From an uncultured Rubritalea sp. (lineage in GTDB: Bacteria > Verrucomicrobiota > Verrucomicrobiia > Verrucomicrobiales > Akkermansiaceae): 40,800 bases of DNA. Below the pieces are notes generated by a model that was not told the DNA's origin, did no database searches, and saw nothing but the letters and a program-made list of their open reading frames with translations. The translations under genes were made by a program, and so were the position numbers. Where the stretch lies: assembly GCA_937132085.1 (NCBI GenBank), contig CAKZNV010000205.1, forward strand, positions 1-40,800, in the 5' to 3' direction. Shown one piece after another: positions 156 through 10,743 of this stretch. The first letter of the stretch is position 1, and every line of letters begins with the position of its first letter.

Positions 156-1760
156 TTGAGAACCGATAATGACTCTATCTCATACACTCATGATCTGTAT
201 AAGCAAGCCGTCTTGGGTTTAGCTGATTTATCGAACAGCAAACAAACCTACGCTACTATCGCTAGAATAATGTATAAAGAGCAGAACTATGTGAAATCAA
301 TGTGTTTTTGGCATTTAGCTGAGCACAACGAGAGATCCATGGTTTGTAAATATAAAGCTTTTAATAGATATTACGATCAATCAAATACATCTGAAGCATT
401 TGAATTAGCTGACACTCTTTTCGAGCAACTTGATAAAGTTAGAATCAATCCAAATAAAGAAAACACCCTTTTATGGAGGCTCGCTAGCACAAATCAAGCA
501 GCCGGTATTTTAGAAAATGCTGTTAAATACTATAAACGATATTTAGCCAATCATGGATTCAAAATAGGTAAGAGGCACAACTTTCTCATTCTGTTGTATT
601 ACTTTTTCCCGCATAAAAAGCTCAAAACATCTCAATCCTTTGCCTCTTCTAAATATGACAGATTCTCCATTGCGATCATGTGTATCATTGATTTTGTCTC
701 ATTTCAGGACAAACCTCTAACCATTCTAAAAAACGTAACATTAGCCCATCAGATCAACCTTCAAAGCTCCAAAAAATCTCATTATAAAGGATTTACCTAC
801 CTATTTATAGCCTTCTACTACTATCCTTTGGTAAAAGAGCGTGGAACAAAAAAATTCATCCGATTTGCTGAAGAAGCTTCAGCAAATTCAGAAGCTAATT
901 TAGCCGACTTTTGTTTTCTGAAGACTCATTACTACATGTATTCAAAAAACTGGGCTAGCTATTTGAAGGTGCTAGAACATGATTATAACGCATCTATTCT
1001 AGATGGTGATCACGTAGTAGCGGCTCGAATCAGCATGCTCAAATGCGTTATTTTATTGGATTCAGGCCAAGCCCATCAGGTATTAATCTTCTTACAAAAT
1101 GAAGTGAACACACTGATACAATATCTACCTATATGGTTTAGAAGTTGGATTAACCAGCTGAGATATTCCATTTACTTAGAATTGTTCCATCCGAGTAAAT
1201 TGATTTTTATCAAACAAGACAAAATCCCTCACGAGATCAAGGCTGGCGCTTATTTGTTTTTTTCTCATGCTGAGGCCAGTCTCGGTAATTACCATAAGTC
1301 ACTAGAGTATTTGCAACTAGTTCTCCTGTATTTTTCACAAATGCAGTTTTTGAATCAATCGTTCACCATTTGTATTAAATCCTTCGTAGAAACCCCCATC
1401 ATTCTTTACTCCAATGGCTATATCTCTAAAAAGATTTTTAAGAAATTTATACGCTGTGCCAGATTTCATGGAAAATTTGTCTATCGATCCAAACCACTCA
1501 TTGATGGCTATGAAGGTATCATCAACTTACTTTCTTCTAGACCCACCAATGGCAGAGCAATATTAGAACAAGCATGCCAAGACGCTGTTATCCGAGGTAA
1601 CTACTCGGCTAACAGACTATTCAGACTGCATTTGCTCTATCTTTATGGGACTAAAGTAGAGCTACACCCTCAGCCATTTGAAGGTGAATTAGTAAGAGTT
1701 CAAGCTATTTGGAAGAACTCAATTCATCAGGCTCACCCAGACTTTTTAAGTATTCTATAA
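156..1760 (+). CDS. STAND/AAA-type ATPase C-terminal remnant with TPR-like helices
   Basis: The first residues (LRTDNDSISYTHDLYKQAVL) match the end of the winged-helix region of STAND/AAA_16 ATPases, where a 'SFxHDLxREAV' motif precedes the TPR repeats. The remaining ~480 residues are helical and TPR-like without a recognised catalytic motif. No Walker A or B is present, so this is not a complete ATPase. The TTG start at 156 lies inside a conserved motif; the frame is open back to 63, where TAG at 60-62 closes it, and a TGA lies further up at 33-35. The gene is therefore probably a 5'-truncated or frameshifted remnant, or an internal piece of a longer gene broken near the window edge. Its 3' end overlaps the convergent cytochrome gene by 56 nt. 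Family assignment is inference from one motif and the repeat-like helices. Confidence 0.55.
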   Translation: MRTDNDSISYTHDLYKQAVLGLADLSNSKQTYATIARIMYKEQNYVKSMCFWHLAEHNERSMVCKYKAFNRYYDQSNTSEAFELADTLFEQLDKVRINPNKENTLLWRLASTNQAAGILENAVKYYKRYLANHGFKIGKRHNFLILLYYFFPHKKLKTSQSFASSKYDRFSIAIMCIIDFVSFQDKPLTILKNVTLAHQINLQSSKKSHYKGFTYLFIAFYYYPLVKERGTKKFIRFAEEASANSEANLADFCFLKTHYYMYSKNWASYLKVLEHDYNASILDGDHVVAARISMLKCVILLDSGQAHQVLIFLQNEVNTLIQYLPIWFRSWINQLRYSIYLELFHPSKLIFIKQDKIPHEIKAGAYLFFSHAEASLGNYHKSLEYLQLVLLYFSQMQFLNQSFTICIKSFVETPIILYSNGYISKKIFKKFIRCARFHGKFVYRSKPLIDGYEGIINLLSSRPTNGRAILEQACQDAVIRGNYSANRLFRLHLLYLYGTKVELHPQPFEGELVRVQAIWKNSIHQAHPDFLSIL

Positions 1761-4347
1761 GAGCTCTCTTTTCTGGCTCTGTAAAATCCACACCAAATTC
1801 ATGTCCATGGTTCACCCCTTTTGCTTCGAATGTATAGGTTACTAATTTTGCTTCCTTTGTATTTCTATCATAAACATACCTACGAACATCTTGATTCTTT
1901 ATCTCCGTATCTTCGCCTCTGCTAAAATAACCTAGATTCTTAGTATCATAGTCACGAGAGCCTACATAGAACTCGGGTTCACGCTCACTAGCAGGAAGTA
2001 AGAGCTGATAGATAGTTCTTACTGACCCATTATGCAAATATGGTGGACTAGCCCAGACTCCATTGAGTGGTCGTGCCATATAACCTTCAGATCTTTTCCA
2101 TATGATAGGTTTTGGATTGTAACCATCTCTGTAAATGAAGCGGCCTACATTTGTCTCATGAAGCTCAGTAGCTCGTTGCAAAGCCCCCGCTTTACCAGAT
2201 AGAGACTTGAATGCTGCTACTCTATCATCAAAGTTGGTATCATTATAGAATGCCCAGCGCTTTTTATCAGTGCCCACTTTATAGATATCCACCCTTTTTC
2301 CTGCCTTATTTTCATGACAAGTAGCACAGGATGAATTGTGCTCTTTCTGATTACCATCTGCGTCTTGATACAAATACTTGAACTCTTTATTATAAAGTTC
2401 CTTACCTTGTTCAGCTAACGTTTCAGAGTAATGCTGAGGAAATAGTTCAGAAAATGTCGGGATTTTAATCCTGCTATAAAACATTTCAGCTTCATGCACT
2501 TTATCCAGATCTACTCGCGTTAAGAGACTACCTCGCACTAGTGTATCACTCCTGAGAGTCTGATCATCTACACCCACCAATGCTCCAATCGCCAATGCTT
2601 GCAACATATTACGTTGCATCATCGTATTCGTATTACCATCTATATGAAAATAATATTCATTCGTATAACTAGCACTAGCTGTCAAACGCTCATCCTCTAT
2701 TGCTTTCAACTTAGATCGATAATAAAGTGAGTAGCTATATAAATTAGGTATTTTTACCGGAGCTGGCTCACCAAGATAAGATTCTCCAGTCTCCGCAACC
2801 AATCTACTAAGAATATTCCAGGCATCATCTCTACCTGGACCAAAACCTCCACCATTCTTAGTATTATCAAATTCATCTAGTTTCTCTATGATCTTAAGAA
2901 TCTGTTTACTAAAAAAAGTTTGCTCTTGTAACAGCCGATATAACTTCAACAATGAACTATTCGCTTCTAGAGCTCGTTCATTAGGATCTACTATACTTTC
3001 ATTATCACAAAGCGCAGTCTTGTTCCAATCTATCCAACCGTTATCATCTCCCTCTTCAGGGGTTAGTAGATTCTCCAATCGTTTACTACCTGTTTCATAT
3101 GTCTCGTCAGCATCGAGAGCTTGCTTTTTAAGCTCGCTAAGATACGCCTTGTTGAAATCTTCAGTGTCAAATACTTTACCCTTCATCGTTGCATCTAAGG
3201 ATTCTTCTATCGCCTTAGATCTCGCGTATTGTCGTATATGTTCTGCAATTTCATTTAATTCCTCAATAGATAAATCTACTCCACTAGTTGGAATATCTTT
3301 AGTAACATACTTAGTTTGCTTAATATCTTCATCTAACTTTTTAAGATAATCAACAGTCACATCTTCAGGATTAAAGTAAGCTGGTAAATTTTCATTTTTA
3401 ATAGCTCTCATCAAAAATAAAATAAGCTTTGATTTATCAACCAGAGTAGCCTGAACAGAATCGTTAATGTATTTAGCCCACTCCATAGGGTAAACAAGAT
3501 TTCCAGCCCCATCTACATTATACAGTTTCCCATCCACTCTCATCCTTCCTGTATGGCAAGCCGCACAGCTCATCGTAGAAACATCTTTATTCCCTACTAG
3601 TGTGTGTGTGAACCCTATTGGTAGCCCATATTTATTATATTTACTTACTCTACCATCTAAAAAACCATAGAGTTTCATATCATCTATTAAAGGCTTACCT
3701 GAGTGAGCCCCCTCAAGATTTAGTAACACGAATAATGCTAGCTGATCAGCTCCTTGATCAATATGCCTAAAATAGCCAGCGCCTTCATTCAAGACAAGGT
3801 CTTCCCCTAAAATAGGAGGCTCCCTATCCTTTTCTGAAATAAAGATATATACTATTAACCCGACTAACGCTAAACAAGCAGCTCCAATATAGTAGTAATC
3901 GTAACGATTCAACTTAGCTTTCACTGGGCAAGGTTTCTCTAAGATAGCGTCTGCATCTGATTTAGATAATCCAAGTATGCTTCTTCTCTTTTCGCTAGAG
4001 CCACCGAGCATCACTTTAGCATAATTTTTAAAACCCAATGAATACTTAGTCTCACTGCCAGCCCAGGGGAAATCGATCTTATGGATCTCATCGCAGTCAC
4101 TGCATTTAAGTGTCGGGAATTTTGCTGTGATCACACTTTTATAACTAGAAAGATCTAAATGACGCCAATTCTGAACATTACTGTCTATTTCTTCTAGATC
4201 CGATTGACAGTGATAACACTTATTATCATCACAGCCATAGTTCACATGGATCAGAGCTTCCATTTTAGATTCATCAAAAACTACGTTTTCTAGCTCCCAG
4301 TGCTCATCACCCTCAAAGATAGAATTGTCAAATTGATCTACATTCAT
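1705..4347 (-). CDS. Di-haem c-type cytochrome with N-terminal ISL3-like zinc finger/HTH and one TM anchor
   Basis: 880 residues in three parts. Residues ~17-137 resemble the zf-ISL3 plus HTH region of ISL3-family transposases: Cys pairs C44/C47 and C82/C85, the motif WRHLDLSSYKS between them, then PWAGSETKYSLGF and a predicted HTH (~110-135). No DDE transposase domain follows. Residues ~151-170 form one membrane segment. The rest is an exported di-haem domain with haem motifs CAACH (261-265) and CATCH (674-678), GPGRDDAW (~503-510), DGNTNTMMQRN (~570-580) and a late PPYLHNGSVRT motif. These are typical of the RoxA/di-haem cytochrome-peroxidase-like class. Expected topology is zinc finger in the cytoplasm, haems in the periplasm. 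It is the last gene of a five-gene minus-strand locus, 77 nt after the synthase gene. Enzyme activity (peroxidase, oxygenase or sensor only) cannot be read from sequence. Confidence 0.85.
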   Translation of the reverse strand: MNVDQFDNSIFEGDEHWELENVVFDESKMEALIHVNYGCDDNKCYHCQSDLEEIDSNVQNWRHLDLSSYKSVITAKFPTLKCSDCDEIHKIDFPWAGSETKYSLGFKNYAKVMLGGSSEKRRSILGLSKSDADAILEKPCPVKAKLNRYDYYYIGAACLALVGLIVYIFISEKDREPPILGEDLVLNEGAGYFRHIDQGADQLALFVLLNLEGAHSGKPLIDDMKLYGFLDGRVSKYNKYGLPIGFTHTLVGNKDVSTMSCAACHTGRMRVDGKLYNVDGAGNLVYPMEWAKYINDSVQATLVDKSKLILFLMRAIKNENLPAYFNPEDVTVDYLKKLDEDIKQTKYVTKDIPTSGVDLSIEELNEIAEHIRQYARSKAIEESLDATMKGKVFDTEDFNKAYLSELKKQALDADETYETGSKRLENLLTPEEGDDNGWIDWNKTALCDNESIVDPNERALEANSSLLKLYRLLQEQTFFSKQILKIIEKLDEFDNTKNGGGFGPGRDDAWNILSRLVAETGESYLGEPAPVKIPNLYSYSLYYRSKLKAIEDERLTASASYTNEYYFHIDGNTNTMMQRNMLQALAIGALVGVDDQTLRSDTLVRGSLLTRVDLDKVHEAEMFYSRIKIPTFSELFPQHYSETLAEQGKELYNKEFKYLYQDADGNQKEHNSSCATCHENKAGKRVDIYKVGTDKKRWAFYNDTNFDDRVAAFKSLSGKAGALQRATELHETNVGRFIYRDGYNPKPIIWKRSEGYMARPLNGVWASPPYLHNGSVRTIYQLLLPASEREPEFYVGSRDYDTKNLGYFSRGEDTEIKNQDVRRYVYDRNTKEAKLVTYTFEAKGVNHGHEFGVDFTEPEKRALIEYLKSLGEPDELSSSK

Positions 4348-4424
4348 AACGAATAGCTTATGATATATAGTGAACCATCAGCAAGGGTAATTCTCCTTCA
4401 CAGAGTCTTTCCAAGTATGCAACT

Positions 4425-5369
4425 CTATCTAGATTTAAAAAGAGAGCTCACTAGTAATTTATAAACCTCATTCCTAGTGATGATCTTCTTATTCTTAAAT
4501 TCCTCCCAAGTAAGATGCCGCATCTTAGAAAGATACAGCAACCCTATTCTAGCAGGCATACTAATACCTATTCTCAGCTTATAGTTGTTCAAACTCTTCG
4601 CATATTTCAGTCCAGATTGAAGCCCTAACTCTATTTTATGAATGAGTTTCTGACCATTCTCATAGATAGCCGCCTCGGATAACTCATTATCGACAGGAAC
4701 ATAAAATCTCTGGTTATCAAAATCCTGTTTAACATCTCTCAAGATATTTAAATAGTGCAGTGCATTTCCATAATCTCGACCAAGTTTACATAAGGTCGCT
4801 CTTTCTAACTTCGAGTAATTTTCACCTTCTAAACTAATGTCTGTCCAGAACTCTCCAACAACCCCAGACATTTGATACACATAAGAGCCCAGCTCCTCCA
4901 TGCTAGTTAATCTGTATACCCCCGTTTCATTTAAAGAATCTAGTTCTTCTTTCTGTTTCAGTAAAATACACTTCACTACCTTTTCAACATGCCCTCTTTG
5001 AGTGTCAGAAAGCTCAATATAATAAGCCAATATTGACTTCAGTTTTTTAGCCAAATGCAATTCCGCTTCAGACTCAAACTTCAGTAATGTTAGATCACTA
5101 ATTTCTACACTTCCACCTCCATTGATCGCATTCTGAAAGGAATTCTGTAGAGCGATGAAGGCCTTACTTCTCTTTATAGCTGTCTCACCATAGGCATCGA
5201 CAATACTATCCCCCAGCTTAGCCAATAGATAAGCGATTAAAATAGGTTTCTGCTGCTGCTTAGGCAAAAGATAGAAAGTAATCGACAAGCTCCTAGAGAT
5301 GGACTTGACCATGGATTTAAAATCCTTGTCATCCATTGTATGAACTCTATCGTCAGCTATTGATTTCAT
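4425..5369 (-). CDS. Squalene/phytoene synthase family protein
   Basis: 314 residues, the usual length for trans-isoprenyl head-to-head synthases. The first aspartate motif is DSIVD (54-58) in the context LLPKQQQKPILIAYLLAKLG. The second is DVKQD (212-216) in the context YLNILRDVKQDFDNQRFYVP, with the typical YVYQMSGVVGEFW segment near 163-175. These acidic motifs bind the Mg-diphosphate groups of two prenyl diphosphates; family members make squalene, dehydrosqualene or phytoene. Which product is formed here is not decidable. Its ATG overlaps the stop of the upstream protease gene (ATGA, 5366-5369), so the two are translationally coupled. It sits between secreted proteases and RoxA-like cytochromes rather than with other carotenoid or hopanoid genes, which is unusual. 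Confidence 0.85.
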   Translation of the reverse strand: MKSIADDRVHTMDDKDFKSMVKSISRSLSITFYLLPKQQQKPILIAYLLAKLGDSIVDAYGETAIKRSKAFIALQNSFQNAINGGGSVEISDLTLLKFESEAELHLAKKLKSILAYYIELSDTQRGHVEKVVKCILLKQKEELDSLNETGVYRLTSMEELGSYVYQMSGVVGEFWTDISLEGENYSKLERATLCKLGRDYGNALHYLNILRDVKQDFDNQRFYVPVDNELSEAAIYENGQKLIHKIELGLQSGLKYAKSLNNYKLRIGISMPARIGLLYLSKMRHLTWEEFKNKKIITRNEVYKLLVSSLFKSR

Positions 5370-6364
5370 AAGTTATTAATCATATCCTTTAAATGATGAA
5401 TGGGTATAAAAGACTGAAGTATGTTTTCAGACTCCTCTGGGTATTTATAAAGATTCCCATTTTTAAAATCTTTCTTCTTACCTGCTACATAGAGCCCTAT
5501 TAGCTCAATCTCCGGAAATGAAAATACTGGCGACCCTGAATTCCCATGAAAAGAATCTAATGAACATCTATAACTTTTACCTCCTTCTATACCTCCTTCT
5601 CTATCTCTCAGCTCTTTCAGAACCTTTCCCTTCATCGCGATAGTCATAGGCATCCCATCTGGATGACCAATCATAGAAAGTCTCATATTTTTCTGCACGC
5701 TTTTACGTGAAATTTCCAGTATCTTGGCATTTGACACTGGTCTATCCAGTTCTATCACACACCAATCAGTTGACAGCTTTGTCTCTACACTTCCTTTTCC
5801 TAATGCGACTATGCTCGATGCTTTATAAACTTGCTCTGGTGACACTTCCTCCATCACTCCAGTAAATCCGTTATATACTAATGAAGCCTCATCTGATGAT
5901 AAATTATAATCAAAAATAAATCGTAGTTCATCAAAATTGGCTCTTTCGACTACATGTCTGGCTGTTAGCACTTTATTCTCACTTATTAGAAATCCAGTGG
6001 AACTACGAAACTCTTCATCTTTAATTATTGCTGGTATTGATGCCATCTGTTGACCTTCATTCAAATTTTGAACATGCTGATACGGTTTTGTAATCGGCTG
6101 ATCATTCACTATCTTATTTATATTAATAACTAAACAAACACCCTTCCCTTCTTCATACAATTCTTCTATAGCTTGCTCTATAGTCCCTTCTGAGAGATCG
6201 GGGTATAGTTTTGTAATTTTTTTCTTAAAATCAACAGAATTATATAGAGCTAAATCATTAGAACCTATTATAGCTTGAACATCTAGAGTTGGTAAAGACG
6301 TAGTTGAAACTGAAACACAACTAGGTAGAAGTAATAGTAAAGATAGAATCGGATATTTAATCAT
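5366..6364 (-). CDS. Trypsin-like (S1/V8-type) serine protease, lipoprotein
   Basis: 332 residues. The N-terminus is a lipoprotein signal (LSLLLLLPSC, lipidated Cys at 16). The peptidase domain has a complete triad: His137 in TARHVV, Asp200 in STDWCVIELD, Ser276 in SFHGNSGSP. The GNSGSP form is typical of V8-like/HtrA-like chymotrypsin-fold proteases; no PDZ domain is visible. It is expected to be anchored in the envelope. It is paralogous to the upstream gene at 6415-7689, sharing PAIIKD/PSIIKD, GFLI, HPDGMP, SLDSFHGNSGSP and LIGLYVAGKKKD segments. It overlaps the synthase gene by 4 nt. The substrate is unknown. Confidence 0.85.
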   Translation of the reverse strand: MIKYPILSLLLLLPSCVSVSTTSLPTLDVQAIIGSNDLALYNSVDFKKKITKLYPDLSEGTIEQAIEELYEEGKGVCLVININKIVNDQPITKPYQHVQNLNEGQQMASIPAIIKDEEFRSSTGFLISENKVLTARHVVERANFDELRFIFDYNLSSDEASLVYNGFTGVMEEVSPEQVYKASSIVALGKGSVETKLSTDWCVIELDRPVSNAKILEISRKSVQKNMRLSMIGHPDGMPMTIAMKGKVLKELRDREGGIEGGKSYRCSLDSFHGNSGSPVFSFPEIELIGLYVAGKKKDFKNGNLYKYPEESENILQSFIPIHHLKDMINNL

Positions 6365-6414
6365 AATGTTTTTTGTTATTTAGAATTTTTTACATAATCT
6401 CTCGATCTTAAGAA

Positions 6415-7689
6415 TTACAATTCATTTATAATACTAATCAAGTGGCTGATTGAAGTAAATGACTGTATAATTTTATCAGAATTTTCTTCTGATCTAGTAA
6501 TTGCATTATTACGAACATCTTTTTTCTTACCTGCCACATAGAGTCCAATTAGCTCAAAATTAGGATATGTGAATATTGGTGAACCAGAGTTACCATGAAA
6601 AGAATCAAGAGAACATTGATAGCTATGATTAAAAGAACTAGGACCACTCAGTAGTTTGCCTTTCAGAGACACGGTTAGTGGCATCCCATCCGGATGACCA
6701 ACCATCATCAGTTTTTGACCATGATTGATTTTTCTGTCAGAGATTTGAAGAGTCTGACTAGATTCTACTATCCTATCTAGCTCCAGAATACACCAATCAC
6801 GTGTCCTATCTTTAGCATAGCCATCCCCTCCTTGATTCACAACTCTACTTACTTTATAAACATCACTGGATCTAACTCTTTGTGCTTTTAGTGGATTGTA
6901 ATGACTCAGTTTATAGTTAAATATAATCCTTAGATCGTCTAAGTTTACGTCTTTAATAACATGCCTAGCCGTGAGAATTCTATTTTCACCGATTAAAAAT
7001 CCAGTAGCATTTCTGTAATTACCATCCTTAATGATAGAAGGCATATTGAATAGAGGCTCAGTGTCTTTTAATTTATGAATCTTTCCATAGGGAGCTGTAA
7101 GTGGCTGGTTGTTAAATAACTTATTTTTAGAAGTAATTAAACACACACTTTTAGAAATACTGGTGATTTTAGATTCTAGATCGTTCCGTGCAGGTTTACC
7201 TAAATTAGGATAAGCTTTCCCTACTAGTGCTGGTAAAACAGCAGCATTCACTGGCGCTGTATCATCATCCCCTACAATATGGCTATCTCCATTCAGATCC
7301 TTGAGTCTTAATAAGGGCTTCGATCCTAATTTATGCTCAAAATCTATTTCCAGCTTATAACGGCCAAGCTCCTCCATTTGTAGTGAAATATCACGGTCAA
7401 TTCGTTCCAAGTTTAGCCTAGAATTCTGAGCTCTTAAATCTGAAATATTTCCAGATGATTGTCCTGGATTAAATTCACCACTAAAATTTGATAAGTTTTT
7501 AGCCTGTGGACTCAGCATCTCTGGTGGAGCAAACTCTGAGAAACTTTCAATAGTCGGTTCACTCAATTGAGCTTCTTGCGAAATCATTTCCGCAGCATTT
7601 TGATCATTTCTAGATTCTGGTGGTTTTTGTTCTTCTTCCTTAGAACAAGAAAAATGAATGAGGCATAATAAAAGTATGATATATTTCAT
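6415..7689 (-). CDS. Trypsin-like serine protease, lipoprotein, with long linker
   Basis: The preferred start is the ATG at 7689, giving 424 residues. It is followed at once by the signal MKYIILLLCLIHFSC with lipidated Cys15; the longer frame to 7728 adds 13 residues that do not fit a signal peptide. Residues ~16-150 form a polar, Glu/Pro/Ser-rich linker absent from the smaller paralogue, ending in a short LKDLNGDSHIVGDDDT segment. The peptidase domain has His243 (TARHVI), Asp298 (TRDWCILELD) and Ser368 (SFHGNSGSP). Its closest visible relative is the next gene (5366-6364), so this looks like a tandem duplication followed by divergence. It lies 48 nt after the 681-aa cytochrome gene and 50 nt before its paralogue, consistent with one operon. 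Confidence 0.85.
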   Translation of the reverse strand: MKYIILLLCLIHFSCSKEEEQKPPESRNDQNAAEMISQEAQLSEPTIESFSEFAPPEMLSPQAKNLSNFSGEFNPGQSSGNISDLRAQNSRLNLERIDRDISLQMEELGRYKLEIDFEHKLGSKPLLRLKDLNGDSHIVGDDDTAPVNAAVLPALVGKAYPNLGKPARNDLESKITSISKSVCLITSKNKLFNNQPLTAPYGKIHKLKDTEPLFNMPSIIKDGNYRNATGFLIGENRILTARHVIKDVNLDDLRIIFNYKLSHYNPLKAQRVRSSDVYKVSRVVNQGGDGYAKDRTRDWCILELDRIVESSQTLQISDRKINHGQKLMMVGHPDGMPLTVSLKGKLLSGPSSFNHSYQCSLDSFHGNSGSPIFTYPNFELIGLYVAGKKKDVRNNAITRSEENSDKIIQSFTSISHLISIINEL

Positions 7690-7737
7690 AGGGTAATTGG
7701 GTTGAGTTTTGTAATTATTGAGAACCAAAGGTCATAA

Positions 7738-9783
7738 TTATTTTTCTTCTGGGTCCCCTAGAGTCTTGATGTATTCGATGAGATAAAGCTTCTCTTCATC
7801 ACTAAGCTTCGTTCCATATTCGTGGCCCACATTGATTCCATCTACATCGATTTTGTATGTAGTTAGCTTCCCTTCTACATAATGTTTAACATCTTTGTTT
7901 TTATCATCTCCGTAGTTTTTATATCCTAGGTTTTCAGTATCATAATCTCTCGTTCCTACGTAGAAGCTCTTCTCACGTTGTGCTGCTGGTGTAAGTAGTT
8001 GCTGGATTGTTCTAACTGAACCATTGTGTAGATACGGAGGACTAGCCCATACTCCATTGAGAGTTCTAGCCATATAGCCTTCACGAGCGTTGAACCATTG
8101 TGGATTTTCCATCTCGTAGCTACCTCCTCCTGAGTCTCCACCATTAGCGATAATTCTATTGAGCGATAGCCGGTAAACGCTAGCCGTTTTTAATTCAATT
8201 GATTTCAGAACTCCCTCCCTAAGCTCCTTCTTTTCTTCACCATTAAAGAATCGCCACCTTTTAGGATCAGTTTTTACATCTCCTATAGGTATCATTTTCC
8301 CTTCAGGACGGTCATGACAACTCAGGCAATTTTGAGCAAAAATAGCTTCTCCTTTTTTTGCATGATCAGGATTAAAATGCTTAGGGAAAATTTTGCTGAA
8401 ATTAGGGATTTTGATCTGCTGGTAATACATATCCGCATTATGAATCTCATCAATTTTAGCTTCTGATTCATACCCTCCTACATGGTTTGGGCTACTCAAC
8501 GCTCCTACAGCCATGGCTTGTAAGTAGTTTCTCTGCATCAGAGAATTTGTATTTCCATCATAATGAAAATGATACTCTCTTGAATCTGTGCTCTTAGTTC
8601 TAGAGTAATAGGAATAGGAAAATAAATTAGGAATTTTGGTCGGCGCTGGTTCAAAATGCTCCATTACTACATCTGTATTACCACCAACAAGAGCTCCTAG
8701 AACAAACCAAGCATCATCTCTTCCTGGACCGATATTACCAATTTTTTCTATTACAGGAAAAGCCCTATCTGCATACTGTTTCTGGGATAACAATAATTTC
8801 AACAAACTGCTCGAAGACTTCGAAGTGTTACTCCATTTATCTGGAACCAAGAGCTTCTCTGAATTTTGACAGAAGTCAGAGTCTGAATATTTTTTATAGT
8901 AGCTAGTTTTAGCCTCTAATTCATCTTTAAAGAAATCAACATTATCCTCGTTACCTTCTTCATTGTAGTAGTCTTCTAGGATTTTCTTTTTCTTGAGTAA
9001 TTCTTTCAAATACACCTCTTGAAACAATTCTTCAGTATATTTCTCACCGCTGATTGTCTTTTTCAGCATTTCAGCTACTGCTTGAGAACGAGCTAATTCA
9101 CGAGCCTCATCTTCCACCATCTTTTGCGATTCTGCGCTCATTACTCCATTACTATCAGAGGACACAGGTCTTTCGACAGGATCTTTCCCAAATTGCGACT
9201 GGATTTTCTCTATGTCAGCCACACTTGTATTTTCTGGTGTGTATTTTTCTGGTAAGTCATTATTTTTCATTAGACGTATCAGAAAACCAAGCAGCTTAAC
9301 CGGATTCTTAAGATCATCGATAGAATCATTAATAACATGCGCCCATTGACCTGAACTCGTCAAATTACCACCACCTTCTACATTATACAGCTGATCATCG
9401 ACTCTGATTCTCCCTGTGTGGCAACTGGCACAGTTCATCGAACTAATCTCATATTTGCCATGCTGCGCTACACCTATTCCAAGCGGCAGTCCATGAGGAT
9501 TTTCAGTAGTCACAGGTTCTACCAAGAACCCAAAATGTTTCATTTCTTGAATAAGCGGTTTACCTGAATACTTGCTATAAACATTTTTCAAAATGAATAA
9601 AGGAATCTGCTTCGCTCCTTGATCTCGGTGGCGATTTGCTTCAGTCCCTTTATTCTCCACTAACTCCTTCGCCTCTTCTGTTGGCGGTGGTGGGGGTGGG
9701 TCAGGCCAGATAATATAAGTGCCCACTGACACAACTGGCAAGACAGCTAACCATTTTATTTTGGAAGAATTATTTTTAGACAT
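7738..9783 (-). CDS. RoxA/cytochrome-peroxidase-like di-haem c-type cytochrome
   Basis: 681 residues, close in length to the rubber oxygenase RoxA class. An N-terminal membrane segment (~10-26) is followed by a Pro-rich stretch (27-34). Haem motifs are CASCH (118-122, within NCASCHTGRIRVDD) and CLSCH (486-490). Other class motifs are GPGRDDAW (352-359), DGNTNSLMQRN (409-419), SPPYLHNGSVRT (581-592) and a late GHEYG (His654), which could supply a distal haem ligand. It is homologous along its length to the exported part of the 880-aa protein at 1705-4347, including the RHxDQGA and GYMARxLNGVWASPPYLHNG blocks, but lacks the zinc finger/HTH. It probably heads the five-gene locus. Whether it acts on polyisoprenoids, peroxide or something else is unknown; classification by motif only. 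Confidence 0.85.
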   Translation of the reverse strand: MSKNNSSKIKWLAVLPVVSVGTYIIWPDPPPPPPTEEAKELVENKGTEANRHRDQGAKQIPLFILKNVYSKYSGKPLIQEMKHFGFLVEPVTTENPHGLPLGIGVAQHGKYEISSMNCASCHTGRIRVDDQLYNVEGGGNLTSSGQWAHVINDSIDDLKNPVKLLGFLIRLMKNNDLPEKYTPENTSVADIEKIQSQFGKDPVERPVSSDSNGVMSAESQKMVEDEARELARSQAVAEMLKKTISGEKYTEELFQEVYLKELLKKKKILEDYYNEEGNEDNVDFFKDELEAKTSYYKKYSDSDFCQNSEKLLVPDKWSNTSKSSSSLLKLLLSQKQYADRAFPVIEKIGNIGPGRDDAWFVLGALVGGNTDVVMEHFEPAPTKIPNLFSYSYYSRTKSTDSREYHFHYDGNTNSLMQRNYLQAMAVGALSSPNHVGGYESEAKIDEIHNADMYYQQIKIPNFSKIFPKHFNPDHAKKGEAIFAQNCLSCHDRPEGKMIPIGDVKTDPKRWRFFNGEEKKELREGVLKSIELKTASVYRLSLNRIIANGGDSGGGSYEMENPQWFNAREGYMARTLNGVWASPPYLHNGSVRTIQQLLTPAAQREKSFYVGTRDYDTENLGYKNYGDDKNKDVKHYVEGKLTTYKIDVDGINVGHEYGTKLSDEEKLYLIEYIKTLGDPEEK

Positions 9784-9939
9784 AAATCAAAGCGTAAAAC
9801 AAACGATGAACCAGACAAGGTATTATGCCTGTTTCCAAAAAAGAAACTCTCAGCTAACGACCTAGACTAAGTCTAATTTAGATCTGATAATTTGAGTGAG
9901 CATTCTAAAAGAAGAGGAGCTGCATTTTGCAGTCAAGAC

Positions 9940-9970
9940 ACTTTCTCATTACATGATTTGATGAGAAAGT
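9940..9970. repeat. 10-bp perfect inverted repeat across the kinase stop codon
   Basis: ACTTTCTCAT (9940-9949) and ATGAGAAAGT (9961-9970) form a perfect 10-bp stem with an 11-nt loop containing the kinase stop codon. There is no T-run on either side, so it is not a typical intrinsic terminator. It could protect the 3' end of the transcript or bind a protein. Confidence 0.5.
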
Positions 9971-10743
9971 TCCCTTATCATAGAAGCGTATTCAGACAGC
10001 TTTTCCTCAGTGACCTTTAGCTCATACCACTTTTTAGCTTCCTCCTCACTGAGGTGCCGCTTCATATTGGCTAACATCATGGTCACACCGATGATCTCGG
10101 GACAGAGAATATCATGTAGCTCATGCCCTAACTTGACATTACTCTCTGAAAAATCATCACTCAGCCCCTTGATGCTTGGTATATCGATCACTACGACAGT
10201 TCCACTTGAATCCGGCTTATCTAGCCATTGAACTGCCCCATTAAATTTCTCCACTCGGGAGCGCATGTTACCGATTCCTTTGCCATTCTTACTAGTGATT
10301 GATTCGCTCATCCCTATGCCATTGTCTGCAATCGTTATTTTCAGCCCCTCATCTTGGTAAATGACTAATATCTGAATCATCCCCGCTTTACCATGCTTCA
10401 CAGCATTACTACATGCCTCCTGCATCACGCATGCCAGCTCATTCTGGACAACACACGGAAGTGCTATTTTCTCTCCGAGCTCATTAAATGTCACCACCAT
10501 CCCCATAGAGTCATGACGCTCTCTAAAACCGTTTGTCCATTCTTCAAGAGTCTGTTGATGAGTCCTACATTTTACATTAGCTACTGTCTCTGTCAGATTG
10601 TTCATCATCATCCCCAAAGTAAAGCTCGGTTCATTATTCACCGCATCATCTTTCCACCTTTCGAGTTTTTTAGATGCAGACACAAGAAACCCCTCGAGCT
10701 CCTCGAATAAATGTTGCACTGATTGGTAGATAGCTTTGTTCAT
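9949..10743 (-). CDS. Histidine-kinase-like protein, HATPase domain before a HisKA_3-like helix pair
   Basis: 264 residues, no membrane segment. The N-terminal ~75 residues are helical. A HATPase_c domain follows, with N-box QEACSNAVKHGKA (N113), G1 box DNGIG (140-144), G2 box GKGIGNMRSRVEKFNG and GTVVVIDIP. After it comes a segment HELHDILCPEIIGVTMML (His207/His210) that looks like the phospho-acceptor helix of NarL-type (HisKA_3) kinases, ending in RELSHQIM. In normal kinases this helix pair comes before the ATPase domain. The C-terminus therefore looks either permuted or cut off before a second ATPase domain. The start ATG overlaps the stop of a 56-codon ORF (ATGA). No response regulator gene is adjacent; the nearest DNA-binding protein is the divergent XRE gene at 11288. 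Confidence 0.75.
   Translation of the reverse strand: MNKAIYQSVQHLFEELEGFLVSASKKLERWKDDAVNNEPSFTLGMMMNNLTETVANVKCRTHQQTLEEWTNGFRERHDSMGMVVTFNELGEKIALPCVVQNELACVMQEACSNAVKHGKAGMIQILVIYQDEGLKITIADNGIGMSESITSKNGKGIGNMRSRVEKFNGAVQWLDKPDSSGTVVVIDIPSIKGLSDDFSESNVKLGHELHDILCPEIIGVTMMLANMKRHLSEEEAKKWYELKVTEEKLSEYASMIRELSHQIM

Follow-up and report, generated by a model that had tools for sequence, protein, structure and literature searches.

It was asked of this locus whether the front half of a transposase has become part of a bacterial membrane enzyme. The window, a 40,800-nt stretch of DNA from an uncultured Rubritalea sp., contains an open reading frame (ORF) at 1705-4347(-), which begins with ATG at 4347 and encodes 880 aa without internal stops. 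The original prediction had placed an ISL3-transposase zinc finger and helix-turn-helix (HTH) at 3928-4347, which corresponds to residues 1-140 of this protein, in front of a membrane-anchored di-haem cytochrome. The features discussed are:

1705-4347, minus strand: fused gene, 880 aa, with ISL3 head (residues 1-139), membrane anchor (~151-170) and di-haem cytochrome body (~190-880).
3931-4347, minus strand: ISL3 transposase-like head, residues 1-139, with a beta-hairpin (17-37), a zinc ribbon (C44/C47/C82/C85) and HTH-like helices (101-114, 119-125, 129-137).
3910-3924, minus strand: possible internal starts GTG142 and TTG146 (rival start), in frame and just N-terminal to the membrane segment.
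3838-3897, minus strand: membrane segment, residues 151-170, predicted N-in/C-out from hydropathy and flank charge.
1705-3780, minus strand: predicted exported di-haem body, with CXXCH at 261-265 and 674-678 and a distal-ligand-like H849; NF040606 and PF21419 matches.
4425-5369, minus strand: squalene/phytoene-synthase-like protein, the closest model being HpnD, under its cut-off.
5366-6364, minus strand: trypsin-like peptidase with lipoprotein-like N-terminus (Trypsin_2, 1.3e-14).
6415-7728, minus strand: trypsin-like peptidase with lipoprotein-like N-terminus (Trypsin_2, 1.1e-13).
7738-9783, minus strand: paralogue of 681 aa without a head but with its own short N-terminal anchor; its body identity is 42%, and it opens the cluster.

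Sequence comparison confirmed that residues 1-139 are homologous to ISL3 transposase heads over their whole length. The head alone (residues 1-153) matched NCBIfam NF033550 (ISL3 transposase) with an E-value of 3.6e-9, over profile positions 2-107 of 370, the part preceding the DDE domain. A PHROG transposase was matched at 2e-8. Against full-size transposases (400-430 aa) of related genomes, phmmer reached 2e-14 and blastp 1.6e-15, at 26-28% identity. Plasmid matches amounted to 1,479 records, the named ones being ISEc53, ISCfr12 and ISKox3. On a profile built from 12 ISL3 transposase heads, with the fused protein left out, the head scored 82 bits. The Cys pairs C44/C47 and C82/C85, WRHLD (61-65) and PWAG (94-97) were all at the predicted residues. 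The Pfam searches of residues 1-145 that had been proposed as a check would alone have missed this homology: Zn_ribbon_ISL3 scored 18.7 bits, under its cut-off of 25.5, and HTH_Tnp_ISL3 gave no match. The HTH region was covered by the full-length alignments and by the 12-head profile; its homology was seen in full-length comparisons only and ended at residue ~139. The head alignment comprised 15 sequences.

In agreement with the original prediction, Pfam and NCBIfam searches of ORF 1705-4347(-) found no DDE catalytic domain, and the membrane segment and then the CXXCH motifs come next. No other ISL3 match was found on this contig. The ISL3 terminal inverted repeat (GGTTCTTC...TTTAGTGG) was found neither beside the head nor upstream. 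Over residues 14-139, the head follows ISL3 transposases (ISEc53/ISCfr12/ISKox3-like; NF033550) in the succession of beta-hairpin, zinc ribbon, WRHLD, PWAG and HTH-region helices. It differs from them by the missing DDE, the loss of R59, R79, E107 and W129, an acidic ribbon, and the membrane anchor and cytochrome that follow.

The head retained 12 of the 16 fully invariant and 17 of the 28 near-invariant transposase columns. The four zinc cysteines, W17, D55, W61-D65, P78, P94-A96, F106, L125 and I135 were kept, as was the hydrophobic core. The 11 near-invariant positions lost, some of them conservatively, were V19, P45, R59, T71, R79, G86, T90, T103, E107, W129 and R138. R59Q, R79T, E107K and W129K are substitutions at positions where almost every ISL3 head in the comparison has the same residue. 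The zinc ribbon had a net charge of -4, compared with -1 to +8 in 14 transposases, and the HTH part (net +3, 8 K/R) was within the transposase range. Structure prediction of the head by AlphaFold2, another of the proposed checks, showed three helices besides the hairpin and the ribbon (13-sequence alignment, mean pLDDT 77); the model of the full-length protein was poor (pLDDT 49.7). Fold comparison of the head (Foldseek/VIA) returned weak matches, the best with Z 3.7, led by the NrdR zinc ribbon and FlhD; matches of this strength speak neither for nor against kinship with the head. The pattern points to a domain that would still fold, freed from part of its former job, and lowers the DNA-binding reading. 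The head is probably a captured, folded domain residing in the cytoplasm.

Residues 151-170 were the most hydrophobic stretch of the fused protein (Kyte-Doolittle 2.3). The N-side flank has a net charge of +2 and the C-side flank of -3, and therefore the head is predicted inside and the body outside (type-II anchor). The anchor and two-haem exported body expected after the head were thus recovered: the body matched NF040606 (CytoC_perox) with 3.1e-64 and 218.1 bits (cut-off 150), and carried the haem motifs CAACH (261-265) and CATCH (674-678). A RoxA-like signature (PF21419) was found in its C-terminal part, at 7.7e-15, and its best solved structure by sequence was RoxA (4b2n). The body fell outside the RoxA, RoxB and RoxC equivalogs, with 54-65 bits against cut-offs of 900-1000. 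Family-invariant residues, 46 as defined by eight headless relatives with the paralogue omitted from the count, were retained at 42 positions in the fused body and at 43 in the headless paralogue. This degree of retention is what would be expected of an enzyme rather than of a sensor in decay. YLHNGSV, GHEF and a signal-anchor-like body start are further likenesses to RoxA-like and di-haem peroxidase-like enzymes. Polyisoprene or unsaturated fatty acids are the substrates oxidised by characterised relatives, and Pseudomonas aeruginosa PA2077/PA2078 FadCcp belongs to the same RoxA-like/di-haem group (PMC4496055). The fused protein differs from RoxA-like enzymes by the extra 140-residue, transposase-derived head, predicted to be cytoplasmic.

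The fused gene is the last in a minus-strand row of five, preceded by the paralogue, two trypsin-like lipoproteins and the synthase-like gene. Intergenic gaps are short, save for 77 bp ahead of the fused gene. The paralogue and all relatives examined were without the head, which supports its addition to one copy. G+C content was 38.5% in the head and 38.0% in the body, 35-39% in the genes at 156-9783, and 41-54% in nearly all genes beyond 11 kb; the ISL3 transposases examined had 42-64%. By its looks, the low-G+C block at 156-9783, which includes the five-gene cluster, was horizontally acquired. Since the low G+C of the cluster is found in both parts of the fused gene, the fusion is probably older than the entry of the cluster into the genome, and the cluster was probably acquired with the fusion already present. 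This fits with the other genomes of the genus (n = 11), which had no comparable gene; a distant headless relative was found in one of them. The join of ISL3 head and haem enzyme looks both real and old.

Searches of ~1,000 distinct genomes with the fused protein, covering the whole family (n = 260) and samples of the order, class and phylum, found head and body together in the window's gene only. The original prediction knew of no protein with this domain pair and had called for a search for others; by homology across these genomes, no second species with the fusion was found. Pattern scans of genome contigs with the fused protein (P0001) and with the P0001/P0002 alignment gave no relatives, nor did a scan of viral contigs. 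Two RoxA-like long-ORF matches (L059 and L066) were both without any extra domain in their ORFs. Limited literature searches found no described ISL3-cytochrome fusion, and we know of no clear bacterial transposase-domain captures joined to a membrane enzyme.

The ISL3-head profile gave ~140 matches over 384 genomes of the class. The matching open frames were ~400-490 aa long or shorter pieces, with three exceptions: the fused gene, a 682-aa frame and a 504-aa MgtE ORF. The 682-aa frame was rejected as a fusion candidate, having turned out to be a transposase. The MgtE magnesium transporter (L085:2178-3692(-) in genome G858; TIGR00400, 2e-102) has a C-terminal tail corresponding to an ISL3 head fragment, with 63.5 bits against the ISL3-head profile and 6.6e-4 for the Pfam ribbon. 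Two zinc-ligand positions and most of WRHLD were lost in this tail. Judged from its sequence, it is an independent second case of an ISL3 head fused to a membrane protein, again in a genome of the same class, and suggests that host membrane proteins have acquired ISL3 heads repeatedly. It differs from the window's fusion in being C-terminal, in covering the ribbon region only, with no HTH, and in its partly lost zinc cysteines. The decay of the tail looks like relaxed constraint, and against it the unbroken zinc site in the head of the window's protein gains weight; the case also shows that ISL3-head fusions can arise by accident. In another genome (G390), a 147-aa ORF (L034:1447-1887) consists of a complete ISL3 head that ends right past the HTH, with no DDE, and is either a truncated transposase or a solo head.

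Our preferred explanation is an in-frame gene fusion. One of two paralogues, encoding a membrane-anchored RoxA/di-haem-peroxidase-like enzyme, would have captured the beta-hairpin, zinc ribbon and HTH that form the front half of an ISL3-family transposase, with no DDE. The head would be translated and folded around zinc in the cytoplasm, attached to a type-II anchor at its inner end, with the haem enzyme at the outer end. With moderate confidence, we infer that it no longer binds transposon ends and may have been retained in the cytoplasm to anchor or dimerise a periplasmic oxygenase or peroxidase or to bind a partner for it. The fused gene is known from one draft genome, on which this interpretation and the proposed function of the head rest. 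To the reading as a real, translated fusion, in which the head has a modular role in the cytoplasm and not that of binding transposon ends, we tentatively give a probability of about 0.4.

The head might instead be a passive remnant, a piece of ISL3 that stayed in frame ahead of the anchor and is either untranslated (start at GTG142 or TTG146) or tolerated as a slowly decaying extension. Both internal codons lie right ahead of the anchor. The 11 lost near-invariant positions can also be read as the onset of decay, the MgtE tail shows that such accidents occur, and truncated ISL3 pieces are common in relatives. No clear Shine-Dalgarno sequence was present at either candidate start or at most starts in the window, for which reason this scoring was unable to choose the start codon. 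However, the internal start codons are GTG and TTG, and neither an ISL3 end repeat nor a DDE remnant lies nearby. The frame is entirely open, the indels between head and transposases are all in frame at ~27% identity, and four of four zinc cysteines are retained. Pure decay was rejected by a neutral simulation, in which 13 real genes for transposase heads accumulated unselected mutations up to the point at which their variable-column match equalled that of the head. A mean of 4.8 stops was expected, compared with none in the head; 2.1% of the runs were stop-free, and 0.08% were both stop-free and equal to the head in conserved-column retention (17/28). The simulation presumes ancestors like the sampled transposases; a closer ISL3 lineage outside the sample would weaken its result, and part of the divergence of the head may have accrued in such a lineage. 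Because of the simulation and the in-frame indels, the head appears to have been under constraint, and translated, during most of the time in which it diverged, and an untranslated relic is unlikely as its origin. The head sequence also argues against a start at GTG142 or TTG146. Taken as a whole, the remnant explanation is unlikely.

The original prediction had also drawn a parallel to ToxR/CadC-type regulators. Domain identity, layout and topology stood: a single membrane segment separates a domain of DNA-binding type at the N-terminus from an exported C-terminal domain, as in those proteins (PMC10269533). In a one-component membrane regulator, the zinc ribbon/HTH would bind operator DNA, and the periplasmic di-haem domain would sense redox, O2, H2O2 or lipid. 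Domain order and predicted N-in topology are consistent with this, as in transmembrane transcription regulators, which are widespread with >100 kinds of DNA-binding domain (PMC10269533). The charge of the HTH part is transposase-like, and the gene sits inside a five-gene cluster that its product could control. The regulator role is disfavoured by the lost R59, R79, E107 and W129, the acidic ribbon and the enzyme-like body (42/46 invariants). In contrast to ToxR/CadC-type proteins, the fused protein has an ISL3 zinc ribbon/HTH in place of a winged helix, and on the outside what seems to be an intact di-haem enzyme. No inverted repeats were found in the upstream or intergenic DNA of the cluster (9700-9960, 4340-4440 and 1600-1800), and the text of the regulator survey (PMC10269533) is without transposase, zinc or cytochrome. 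A site in the paralogue gene, GGTTCTTGGTAGAAC at 9516-9530(-), was rejected as an operator: it encodes a conserved GFL motif, and the rest of the ISL3 repeat is missing. It matches 14 of 15 bases of the end tip of a same-subfamily ISL3 element, with three such sites in the 4.46-Mb genome, and the likeness is probably due to chance. A ToxR-like redox regulator is thus possible, but not favoured. We regard a one-component regulator in general as doubtful, and its narrower form, a redox- or oxygen-sensing one made from a transposase head on a di-haem enzyme as a bacterial host-transposase fusion, as quite unlikely. An assembly chimera of unrelated sequences would be conceivable in a metagenome-type draft of 254 contigs with 2.58% contamination, the join being present in no second genome. 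However, low-G+C cluster genes lie on both sides of the head, two false joins would be needed, one of them exactly in frame, and head and body are alike in G+C; this explanation is very improbable.

Transposase-domain capture itself is known from eukaryotes, in which host-transposase fusion genes join the DNA-binding region of a transposase to a host protein domain. The fused gene differs from these in being bacterial, a single case and joined to a membrane enzyme; the surprise lies in this partner, a membrane haem enzyme. If the head still binds DNA, the fusion would be a new route for bacteria to a membrane-bound regulator. If it does not, the fusion would still show a transposase domain whose fold was preserved as the cytoplasmic part of a haem enzyme.

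The surroundings of the fused gene gave some further observations. The two di-haem oxygenase-like genes enclose the squalene/phytoene-synthase-like gene and those of the two trypsin-like lipoproteins (4425-9783), an unusual set that might make and oxidise an isoprenoid lipid. No convincing defence-system match was found for the cytochromes or the synthase-like protein, and PADLOC matches of the two trypsin-like peptidases were set aside as reflecting the trypsin fold. Two headless RoxA-like cytochromes in other genomes (L006 and L007) are both followed by two convergent genes, whose products have LuxR-like HTH ends, as seen by eye. This conserved neighbourhood may hint at regulation of headless RoxA-like cytochromes. 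In the window, a 264-aa ORF at 9949-10743(-) has a histidine-kinase ATPase domain (101-189) ahead of a weak HisKA_3 match (205-262), whereas the two usually come the other way round; two kinase pieces have perhaps run together here.
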